A stretch of 64,000 nt of DNA, from NCBI GenBank assembly GCA_027214385.1, contig JAPVXR010000001.1:434001-498000 (forward strand), given 5' to 3'. Positions 510 through 53,427 of this stretch are shown piece after piece. Under the pieces are notes generated by a model, which was not told where the DNA came from, searched no databases, and was given only the letters and a program-made list of their open reading frames with translations. This DNA comes from Cryomorphaceae bacterium 1068. Its GTDB lineage: Bacteria; Bacteroidota; Bacteroidia; Flavobacteriales_D; Cryomorphaceae. Made by a program: the position numbers and the translations under genes. How positions within the stretch are numbered: the stretch's first letter is position 1; each line of letters opens with the position of its first letter.

Positions 510-827
510 ATGGCAGTTGAATTTACACAAGCAAACTTCGAAGAAATGGCACTTAAATCAGACAAACCGGTTTTGATCGATTTCTGGGCAGAATGGTGCG
601 GACCATGCAGAATGGTCGGACCTGTAGTCGAAGAGATTGCAAAAGAATACGATGGAAAAGCCGTTATCGGAAAAGTAAACGTGGATGAGAATCCTGAAAT
701 TTCGATGAAGTACGGAATCCGTAACATTCCTACGATCCTTTTCTTGAAGAATGGAGAAGTAGTTGATAAGAGTGTAGGAGCTGTTCCTAAGAACGTTCTG
801 ACTGAAAAGCTTGATAGCCAAATGTAA
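510..827 (+). CDS. trxA: Thioredoxin
   Basis: This 105-residue cytoplasmic dithiol-disulfide oxidoreductase carries the classical active site WCGPC at residues 29-33, the preceding DFWA strand and the cis-proline loop NIPT near residue 74. The length is that of canonical thioredoxin 1. I chose the ATG at 510 (MAVEFTQ) over an in-frame TTG at 489 because it gives the standard N-terminus and leaves room for the -7 element at 484-491. It lies downstream of dnaE and is followed by a structured repeat and a rho-independent terminator, so it is probably monocistronic or the last gene of the dnaE unit. Likely clients include ribonucleotide reductase, whose class II gene is in this window at 50683. 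Confidence 0.95.
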   Translation: MAVEFTQANFEEMALKSDKPVLIDFWAEWCGPCRMVGPVVEEIAKEYDGKAVIGKVNVDENPEISMKYGIRNIPTILFLKNGEVVDKSVGAVPKNVLTEKLDSQM

Positions 828-849: not shown

Positions 850-937
850 GCTACCTGCGTTATTCTTGTTTTGTAATCAGTCATTGACATTTGTCAACTC
901 CCTGAATTCCAAAACTTCGAAAGCCTTGTTATCGAAT
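850..937 (+). repeat. Structured intergenic repeat downstream of trxA (copy 1)
   Basis: The centre is the palindrome TTGACA-TT-TGTCAA (884-897). Flanking arms, GTTTTG...CAG (868-880) and CTG...CCAAAAC (902-915), pair to give a long imperfect hairpin. Over the roughly 46 bases from TGCGTTA to GTCAACTCC it is nearly identical to an element after nrdJ (53271-53356), including changes on both sides of the stem that keep it paired. It sits between the trxA stop and the terminator, so it would be in the 3' untranslated region. No coding potential is evident. Confidence 0.7.
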
Positions 938-50682: not shown

Positions 50683-53250
50683 ATGAGCACAAAAACCTTG
50701 GAAACCCCCGTAATTACTGAAGAGAAGAAAGTTGGCCATACGTATGATGAAGCCCTGAAGGCCGCTACTGAGTATTTTGACGGCGATGAACTGGCCGCTG
50801 GTGTTTGGCTCAATAAGTACGCACTTAAAGACTCTTACGGACACATTTTCGAGCAGAATCCTGACGACATGCACAGACGTATGGCGAAGGAAATTGCCCG
50901 TATCGAAAACAAGTATCCAAGTCCACTTTCGGAGGATGAGGTTTTTGACCTTTTGGCAAAATTCAAGTACATCGTTCCTCAAGGTGGACCGATGACGGGA
51001 ATTGGAAACAAACACCAAGTGGCCTCTTTATCCAATTGCTTTGTAATTGGAAATGACGGCAAAAGTGACTCATACGGAGGGATTATGAAAACGGATGAAG
51101 AGCAAGTGCAGCTCATGAAGCGTCGCGGTGGAGTAGGGCACGACCTTTCGGGAATTCGTCCTACGGGATCACCGGTAAAAAATTCAGCGCTTACTTCAAC
51201 GGGAGTTGTTCCTTTTATGGAGCGCTATAGCAATTCTACTCGCGAGGTGGCACAAGACGGACGCCGCGGAGCATTGATGTTGAGTATCTCAATCAAGCAC
51301 CCCGATGCGGAACGTTTTATAGACGCGAAGATGGACGGAACCAAGGTCACGGGAGCAAACGTTTCTGTTCGTATCGACGATGAATTCATGAAAGCGGTAA
51401 AGTCAGGCGGAACTTATAAGCAACAATACCCAATTGATTCAGACATTCCGACTCACGTCAATGAAGTGGATGCCAAGCGAATTTGGGAGAAGATTATTCA
51501 CAATGCATGGGCTTCCGCCGAACCAGGAATCCTGTTTTGGGACACGATCACCAAAGAGTCCATCCCTGATTGTTATTCTGATCTCGGATTCAAAACGACT
51601 TCTACCAATCCTTGTGGCGAGATTCCATTGTGTCCTTATGATTCTTGTCGCCTATTGGCAATCAATCTTTATAGCTACGTAGAGAATCCATTTACGCCAG
51701 AGGCGAGTTTTGATTTTGAAAAATTTGAAGCTCATGGTCGATTGGCACAGCGTATCGCTGACGATATCATCGACTTGGAAATGGAGAAGATCGACGCGAT
51801 TATCGCCAAGATCGATGCCGACCCTGAAAGTGAAGAGATCAAGCTTACCGAGAAAAACCTGTGGTTGAAAATTCAAGAGAAGTGTATCCAAGGTCGCCGA
51901 ACGGGGATTGGAATCACTGCAGAGGGTGATATGCTGGCTGCATTGGGTATCAAATACGGTTCAGAAGAATCTATTTCCTTCTCGGAAAAAGTGCACAAGT
52001 CTCTCGCAGTATCTGTTTACAGCGGTTCTGTGAGCTTGGCTAAAGACCGTGGAAGCTTCCCGATTTTTGATTGGAAAAGAGAAGTGGAGAATCCGTTTAT
52101 CCAGCGTTTGGCTGAAGCTGATCCTCAGCTGATTAAGGACATGAAGAAGCACGGTCGACGAAACATCGCTTCTTTGACCATTGCGCCAACGGGGACAACG
52201 AGTATGATGACTCAGACGAGTTCTGGAATTGAGCCCGTATTTATGGTCTCGTACAAGCGTCGCAAAAAGATTAACCCCAACGATCAAAACACTCGCACCG
52301 ACTTTGTGGATCAAGTAGGAGACCACTGGCAAGAGTTTGCGGTGTTCCACCACAAATTTGCCGATTGGCTCAAAGCCAAAGGCCATGACGTGAAGGAAGT
52401 TCAAAACTGGAGCGATGAAGAATTGAACAAGCTCATCGCTGAGTCACCCTATCACGGCGCTACAGCAAACGATGTGGATTGGGTAAACAAGGTACACCTT
52501 CAGGGAAAAGTTCAGCAATGGGTTGATCACTCGATTTCTGTGACGGTAAATATCCCCAACGAGACCACGGAAGAAATGGTAGCCAGCATTTACGAAACCG
52601 GCTGGGAAAGTGGTTGCAAAGGAATCACCGTTTACCGCGACGGTTCGCGCTCGGGTGTACTTATCTCCGACACTCCTGAAACCAAAGAAATCGTATCAGA
52701 GAATCCTGCTCCTGCGAGACCGAAATCTCTGGAGGCAGATGTCGTACGCTTCAACAACGATTCGGAGAAATGGCTGGCAGTTGTCGGTATTTTGAACGGT
52801 CGACCTTACGAGATTTTCACGGGTCACGCCGAAGAGTCTTTTCACCTGCCAAAAGCCGTTGACGCGGGATTTGTCATCAAAAGCAAAGACGAAGAAACGG
52901 GCAAAAGTCGCTACGACTTTCGCTACCAAGACAAGGACGGATATTTTGTAACTATCGAAGGACTTTCGCGCTCATTTGACCCTGAGTTCTGGAATTACGC
53001 CAAGCTCATCAGCGGAGTACTCCGTCACGGTATGCCCATCGCTGATGTGGTGCACATGGTGGAAAATCTCCACCTCAACGACGAGACATTGAACACTTGG
53101 AAGAACGGAGTCATCCGAGCGCTCAAGCAATACGTTCCTTCGGGCACGGTAGCCGAAGGAGTCGAGTGTTCAGAGTGTGGACAGGAGTCACTCGTTTACG
53201 AAGAAGGATGTTTGAATTGCAAAAACTGCGGGCACAGCAAATGCGGTTAG
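50683..53250 (+). CDS. nrdJ: Adenosylcobalamin-dependent (class II) ribonucleotide reductase
   Basis: The protein has 855 residues. It reduces ribonucleotides to deoxyribonucleotides with a B12 radical. Seen in order are VASLSNCFVIG (active-site C119), GGVGHDLSGIRPTGSPV, TSTNPCGEIPLCPYDSC, APTGTTSMMTQTSSGIEP and GCKGITVYRDGSR, all class II/NrdJ motifs, then a C-terminal region ending in a Cys-rich CSECGQES...CLNCKNCGHSKCG segment that may act as a zinc ribbon and mobile redox tail. Thioredoxin is the usual reductant. No nrdR or other reductase genes lie nearby. A structured repeat and a terminator follow. Confidence 0.97.
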   Translation: MSTKTLETPVITEEKKVGHTYDEALKAATEYFDGDELAAGVWLNKYALKDSYGHIFEQNPDDMHRRMAKEIARIENKYPSPLSEDEVFDLLAKFKYIVPQGGPMTGIGNKHQVASLSNCFVIGNDGKSDSYGGIMKTDEEQVQLMKRRGGVGHDLSGIRPTGSPVKNSALTSTGVVPFMERYSNSTREVAQDGRRGALMLSISIKHPDAERFIDAKMDGTKVTGANVSVRIDDEFMKAVKSGGTYKQQYPIDSDIPTHVNEVDAKRIWEKIIHNAWASAEPGILFWDTITKESIPDCYSDLGFKTTSTNPCGEIPLCPYDSCRLLAINLYSYVENPFTPEASFDFEKFEAHGRLAQRIADDIIDLEMEKIDAIIAKIDADPESEEIKLTEKNLWLKIQEKCIQGRRTGIGITAEGDMLAALGIKYGSEESISFSEKVHKSLAVSVYSGSVSLAKDRGSFPIFDWKREVENPFIQRLAEADPQLIKDMKKHGRRNIASLTIAPTGTTSMMTQTSSGIEPVFMVSYKRRKKINPNDQNTRTDFVDQVGDHWQEFAVFHHKFADWLKAKGHDVKEVQNWSDEELNKLIAESPYHGATANDVDWVNKVHLQGKVQQWVDHSISVTVNIPNETTEEMVASIYETGWESGCKGITVYRDGSRSGVLISDTPETKEIVSENPAPARPKSLEADVVRFNNDSEKWLAVVGILNGRPYEIFTGHAEESFHLPKAVDAGFVIKSKDEETGKSRYDFRYQDKDGYFVTIEGLSRSFDPEFWNYAKLISGVLRHGMPIADVVHMVENLHLNDETLNTWKNGVIRALKQYVPSGTVAEGVECSECGQESLVYEEGCLNCKNCGHSKCG

Positions 53251-53270
53251 TGTCCGACATGAAAGCTCAT

Positions 53271-53356
53271 TAGCTGCGTTACTCTTATTTTGCGAACAGT
53301 CATTGACTTTATGTCAACTCCTTGGTTCCCCAAATTGCGCCTGCCTTGCTACCGAA
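53271..53356 (+). repeat. Structured intergenic repeat downstream of nrdJ (copy 2)
   Basis: The centre is TTGAC-TTTAT-GTCAA (53303-53317), with flanking arms TTTTGCGAACAG and TTGGTTCCCCAAA that pair imperfectly. TGCGTTA...GTCAACTCC is shared with 850-937 except for a few changes. At GAAC/GTTC the stem differs from copy 1 on both sides and stays paired. It lies between the nrdJ stop and its terminator, the same position as copy 1. Confidence 0.7.
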
Positions 53357-53403
53357 CTTACTTGATCGAACACTAGTTTGACCTATTAACAAAAGATAGA
53401 CTT

Positions 53404-53427
53404 AAAAGCCCGCTTGCGGGCTTTTTT
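53404..53427 (+). terminator. Rho-independent terminator after nrdJ
   Basis: AAAAGCCCG (53404-53412), loop CTTG, CGGGCTTTT (53417-53425) and further T. A-run before the stem allows action on both strands. Confidence 0.88.

Follow-up and report, generated by a model that had tools for sequence, protein, structure and literature searches.

A mobile hairpin repeat behind trxA and nrdJ in a Cryomorphaceae bacterium and its strand-specific core

Two similar structured elements lie behind trxA and nrdJ in the stretch of Cryomorphaceae bacterium 1068 analysed here (64,000 nucleotides; the window), raising the question of whether they form part of a switch shared by thioredoxin and ribonucleotide reductase or whether a dispersed repeat has landed behind both genes. 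The initial annotation placed the related elements at 850–937 and 53271–53356. Both were recovered by two covariance models: R1, trained on these two copies among others, gave 122.9 bits for the trxA copy and 115.6 bits for the nrdJ copy (E <= 1e-27, window search), and R2, a cross-phylum core model built from 18 training sequences including the nrdJ copy, found exactly two sites in the window, at 856–928 (55.5 bits) and 53275–53348 (62.1 bits), both on the minus strand. The locations were right, but the extents were too short: the two copies, which belong to a single structured repeat family, occupy 830–953 and 53249–53374 of the minus strand, about 20 bases more on each side.

Architecture of the repeat and its structured strand

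The first copy, a long imperfect hairpin with outer stem TGTGGCTG/CAGCCACA (R1 match, folds, strand comparison and covariation), follows trxA (510–827, plus strand; TAA stop at 825–827), a gene recognized by its sequence and by orthologues that are 84–94% identical in all seven other family genomes. An intrinsic terminator-like hairpin of trxA (992–1014, both strands scored) is separate from the repeat and lies 3′ of it. The second copy, with outer stem AGTGTTCGA/TCGGACACT (R1 match and covariation), follows the 3′ part of the class II ribonucleotide reductase gene nrdJ (52348–53250, plus strand, assigned by sequence), the TAG stop codon of which (53248–53250) overlaps the edge of the repeat; a terminator-like hairpin of nrdJ (53404–53425, plus strand) follows on the 3′ side. 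The coordinates thus agree, for both genes, with the initial description of an element between stop codon and terminator. The possibility that the repeat is itself an intrinsic terminator was rejected, since the terminators are distinct and located 3′ of both copies; that of trxA is also found in relatives without the repeat. A sigma-70 scan, whose consensus does not cover Bacteroidota promoters, gave no promoter-like site near either window copy.

Read on the minus strand, the repeat consists of an outer stem, two conserved flanking sequences (CAAGGC and, opposite it, AACGCA), an inner stem, the sequence GGAG-TTGAC-loop-GTCAA-TGAC and the complementary arms. When eight copies from strain 1068 are aligned, 18 of the 40 modelled pairs have changed on both sides, compared with a mean of 5.6 in shuffled controls, none of 500 of which reached 18; 93% of the alignment cells are paired, a value likewise reached by 0 of 500 shuffles. 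The outer stem (for example TGTGGCTG/CAGCCACA) varies between copies, yet its pairing is kept. The earlier observation that the stems differ on both sides and stay paired therefore holds and extends, and compensatory changes persist when more copies are compared.

The alifold consensus energy of nine copies is −27.9 kcal/mol for the minus strand versus −13.2 kcal/mol for the plus strand, and the unmatched cells, read on the minus strand, comprise 30 G·T versus 4 A·C. Both the lower energy and the excess of G·T identify the minus strand as the structured one, which is therefore antisense to the trxA and nrdJ mRNAs. A hidden short minus-strand peptide (GGAG followed by an ATG in the hairpin) is not favoured: among 44 copies frame 1 is open in 37, frame 3 in 29 and frame 2 never, and in proteobacterial copies the candidate frame, judged by eye, stops after a few codons.

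Inverted ends, target duplications and contacts with stop codons

The repeat is not limited to trxA and nrdJ. An R1 search of the 4.32 Mb genome, in which 150 of about 500 candidates were scored, gave at least 15 copies, including a tandem pair (L014/L017). Besides trxA and nrdJ, the hosts assigned by family search include the genes for Omp85, YggS, an SBP_bac_5 peptide-binding protein, a DUF1573 protein, queA, sucC, nrdA, an imelysin, an HTH repressor and an ECF sigma factor. Seven of the eight family genomes carry the repeat, with 5–58 copies in six relatives and none in G001. Short repeats of other kinds lie within the loops of some copies (L026/L011, L063, L068, L060), among them a TGAGCCTGTCGAAG motif in the present genome and GCCCGTACCGTTCGGGCGGG in G005.

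In sister genera, represented by Cryomorpha ignava and metagenome-assembled genomes, intact copies measure about 150 bp; their inverted ends read GWGTCTGTCCATAAAGTCC, and a 6-bp target, TANNTA, is duplicated on insertion. In the younger copies of these genera the left end reads (TANNTA)G[AT]GTCTGTCCATAAAGTCC and the right end CAGCCACTTGAGTGTATTGACAGACTC(TANNTA), also read as ...GACAGAC[AT]C, so that intact copies are bounded by the terminal inverted repeats GWGTCTGTCC...GGACAGACWC. Duplications flank both sides in L048 (TAGATAG), L038 (TACGTAG) and L047 (TAAATAG) and, in further copies from relatives, L053 (TACTTA), L081 (TATTTA) and L076 (TAACTA); head-to-tail copies occur at L035, L047 and L052. 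The inverted repeats have decayed in the genome of strain 1068, and because the right ends in particular are decayed there, target duplications are unreadable in its copies, including both in the window. Four loci in G003 (L041, L047, L061, L067) have ends of the same kind around a different inner hairpin, GCGTTACGCCTGCC...CTCATTTACATCAGTAGAC...GGCTTGC.

An insertion sequence of 1635 bp with matching ends (left GAGTCTGTCCATACAGTC, right TTTATTGACAAACTC) is present at G006:C195:4627-6261 (L303), as a single copy read at a contig end. It encodes a transposase of 450 residues that matches the ISNCY family NF033593 (377 bits, cut-off 325, NCBIfam) and the DDE domain PF01609 (Pfam); judging from these ends, it is the likely source of the transposase for the repeat. 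ISNCY groups related to ISDol1 generate target duplications of 6–7 bp. A search of the genome of strain 1068 gave no match to PF01609, and its copies therefore look like fossils. The second reading offered by the initial annotation, a dispersed repeat family, is thus borne out by copies behind unrelated genes, by tens of copies in sister genera and by the inverted ends, target duplications and matching transposase element.

These findings lead us to propose, with considerable confidence, that the two window elements represent old copies of a stop-codon-landing miniature inverted-repeat transposable element (MITE) with an imperfect hairpin, mobilized by a DDE transposase, and that they share no switch. 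The MITE would be a short non-autonomous transposon of about 125–150 bp in all, carrying an imperfect hairpin of about 125 nt and probably mobilized in trans by an ISNCY-family (IS4/IS5-like DDE) transposase, as the matching ends indicate. In the present genome the transposase has apparently been lost and the copies appear to be decaying, presumably without a regulatory role at trxA or nrdJ.

Stop codons are abutted by 62 of 110 copies in relatives (47 sense ORFs at the left end and 15 at the right end), with genes called from a simple ORF chain rather than a trained gene finder, so that some contacts involve short or spurious ORFs. Only 5% of TANNTA sites outside genes touch a stop codon, and the explanation of the contacts by target chemistry alone was rejected on this comparison; target choice or retention must therefore contribute beyond TANNTA. 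The register of the contacts agrees with the target sequence: either the stop codon begins with the first TA of TANNTA, or it is made of the target TA plus the first G of the element. Since the preferred target contains TA(A/G) and the element starts with G, insertion into a stop codon would keep or recreate it (TAA or TA|G); the host gene would survive and the copy would come to lie in the 3′ untranslated region before the native terminator.

In the youngest third of copies, 9 contacts are at the left end and 8 at the right, against 21 and 2 in the oldest third (Fisher p 0.009), which suggests no orientation preference at insertion, followed either by selection for one orientation or by a left end that is preserved better than the right. 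At two gene ends a copy is found in two species: behind queA (L022/L173, different genera) and behind a DUF1573 gene (L019/L051, same genus). Pairing is kept in both despite divergence, with 6 double-sided changes between the queA copies and 8 between the DUF1573 copies. The queA copies are likely to be related by common descent, since the agreement extends into the bases that follow the element, although two separate insertions at a hot spot are possible. The double-sided changes may stem from selection on the structure or from palindrome correction, and retained copies with kept pairing could imply a function at the level of the host.

A repeat kept because it works in host genes generally, for example as a stabilizer of mRNA 3′ ends or as an insulator against antisense transcription, would account both for old copies lying mostly in one orientation when young ones do not, as if retained, and for the pairing maintained at the apparently orthologous queA and DUF1573 sites. 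However, of the two strands, the one present in the mRNA forms the weaker fold, and the native terminators lie 3′ of the element and are present without it. The right ends decay, moreover, making right-end contacts harder to detect in old copies, and arm-on-arm palindrome correction during replication can give double-sided changes without selection. We regard a general host function as unlikely.

A core module in several phyla

The central part of the repeat, a core of about 72 nt (CAAGGCGC..GGAGTTKAC-loop-GTMAATGA..GWGCAACGCA), extends well beyond the family. A pattern search of the genomes of 84,980 species gave 81 stretches with the inner motif, in Bacteroidota (Cryomorpha, Paludibacter, Brumimicrobium, Bacteroidales), Proteobacteria (Gallionella, Nitrosomonadales, Pseudomonas, Coxiellaceae and others), Nitrospira, Oligoflexia/Bdellovibrio and a few Clostridia metagenome-assembled genomes, for which a binning error is possible. 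R2 matches 31 of 296 Bacteroidota genomes but just 4 of 140 genera, counts that the search filter makes lower bounds; such a patchy pattern is that expected of a mobile part. In three Nitrospira genomes (L141, L148, L152) a long coding frame apparently encloses the core motif, whose location is the same in all three.

Among 18 core representatives read on the minus strand, CAAGGC, GGAGTT, AATGA and AACGCA are near-invariant, and the letters of the stems vary with pairing kept. Of 11 pairs tested in these representatives, five show double-sided changes (0 of 500 shuffles), and at one position A-C/G-T pairs are swapped for tandem G·A. The mean folding energy of the core is −24.5 for the minus strand versus −18.8 for the plus strand.

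Could the double-sided changes have arisen purely from palindrome correction by template switching, leaving the structure functionless in RNA and DNA alike? Correction toward perfect palindromes is a known fate of long imperfect hairpins, and the outer arms differ freely between copies. The unpaired letters of the core (CAAGGC, GGA/GA, AACGCA) are nonetheless kept across phyla, and the predominance of G·T over A·C noted above (30 versus 4) is not what the perfecting of a palindrome would leave, making this explanation quite improbable.

The ends around the core differ. Those of Cryomorphaceae, GWGTCTGTCC with TANNTA, recur in closely similar form in Paludibacter and a lake Proteobacterium, and Gallionella copies have CAGGGTGTTGAAAAACT ends with YTAR-like duplications. 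Within the Bacteroidota family f18, many genomes from the genera g53 and g58 (L335–L353) have a core variant with a TGTAC/GTACA stem and GGGCACCTCTA-type ends, in up to 15 copies per genome.

At the Rfam 15 gathering score, neither the window nor 16 loci with the core gave any family other than tRNA, and the element stretches themselves gave only weak, chance-level Rfam matches. No description of the repeat or the core was found in the open-licence literature, where the only hits were primer coincidences; a Pseudomonas copy had no match in E. coli, plasmid and phage collections, nor did the core pattern occur in viral contigs.

We favour the view that the core is a strand-specific hairpin serving the mobile element. 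To our knowledge, the double-strand DDE reaction has no need for such a module; for this reason, and because the core is absent from the insertion sequence, it probably does something extra, and may act for the element as single-stranded DNA or as RNA of the minus strand. A further step would be to see in it a transferable part: a one-strand hairpin of about 72 nt with fixed unpaired letters that occurs across phyla in MITEs of unrelated transposon families, is bound by a host factor present in all these phyla, and either promotes the movement of small transposons or makes them tolerable at stop codons. The MITEs in question would be those with differing ends (GWGTCTGTCC/TANNTA, CAGGGTGTTGAAAAA with a YTAR target, GGGCACCTCTA and others), and we put the idea forward tentatively, as possible rather than probable. 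The differently ended elements may be unrelated transposons or one drifting family.

Empty sites, the regulon question and known systems

The reading with which the initial annotation began, a 3′ untranslated RNA element acting with trxA and nrdJ, finds little to sustain it. The repeat is absent behind trxA in all seven other family genomes, including G004 of the same genus; there the stop codon is followed by a terminator within about 25–45 bases, with no repeat in between. Only G003, among the other genomes of the eight compared, has an nrdJ orthologue, and no repeat follows it. These empty sites identify the window copies as lineage-specific insertions, and a trx/nrd regulon is therefore not supported.

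Co-regulation of thioredoxin and ribonucleotide reductase through stability, processing, or redox or nucleotide sensing would have drawn on the position of both copies between stop codon and terminator and on L024 (G000:C2:154545-154669), another copy in strain 1068, which follows nrdA, the gene for the class I ribonucleotide reductase large subunit. With trxA, nrdJ and nrdA, three of the 15 hosts fall in a set of about eight such genes, for which the chance is 3e-6 at face value; but the first two hosts prompted the question and the size of the set was guessed, and one further such host among 13 corresponds to p ~0.03. The tally of host genes proposed at the outset thus yields mostly unrelated hosts, with these three left as an oddity. 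The genomes sampled are drafts, with host contexts taken from short loci, and in relatives, where hosts were judged by eye from C-termini, no trx or ribonucleotide reductase gene was recognized among the 47 left-end-abutting ORFs. As the structured strand is also antisense to the mRNA, we consider such co-regulation very improbable.

The repeat can hardly be a REP element of the kind mobilized by RAYT (Y1 tyrosine) transposases: GGAG just 5′ of the hairpin recalls the tagged hairpins of REPs, a Y1_Tnp gene is present in 16 of 20 core-carrying genomes and the ends of GTAG REPs are known to supply TAG stop codons (PMC3733652), but mobilization by RAYT was rejected because the genome of strain 1068 has no Y1_Tnp, the core motif is found at none of 30 Y1_Tnp loci examined elsewhere (flanks of about 1.5 kb, contig ends permitting) and inverted ends and target duplications, both present in the Cryomorphaceae copies, are not features of REPs. 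What the two do have in common is that they are extragenic hairpins near gene 3′ ends, with stop-supplying ends and GGAG beside the hairpin (PMC3733652, PMC2817692); the present repeat is longer, and no RAYT gene lies beside any copy.

The closest likeness is to MITEs of DDE insertion sequences (ISNCY, NF033593), which are likewise short, geneless and dispersed, share inverted ends with an insertion sequence, duplicate their target and insert in tandem. In contrast to these, the present repeat has an inner hairpin module that is missing from the insertion sequence and recurs with the same key letters under other ends in other phyla. Integron attC sites lie just after the stop codon of a gene and fold on the strand antisense to it. 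The repeat resembles them in both respects, but the core boxes RYYYAAC/GTTRRRY were not seen in its ends, inspected by eye, and its copies are dispersed among chromosomal housekeeping genes rather than forming a cassette array. Enterobacterial ERIC/IRU repeats are imperfect palindromes. They resemble the present repeat, by description, as intergenic, mobile, MITE-like elements of about the same length (RU-1, 127 bp; PMC2759123), whereas the TANNTA target, the stop-codon preference and the Bacteroidota hosts set the repeat apart.

The tempting trxA/nrdJ regulon is thereby removed, and the case illustrates how a mobile hairpin can mimic a regulon by landing on stop codons before terminators and by showing true covariation. 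Of wider interest is the core, a hairpin structured on a single strand and keeping its unpaired letters, which recurs across distant phyla under different ends and lacks an Rfam entry. Were it a functional part that unrelated MITEs have in common, this would suggest that one factor acts on all of them and would account for the presence of repeats of this kind at gene ends.
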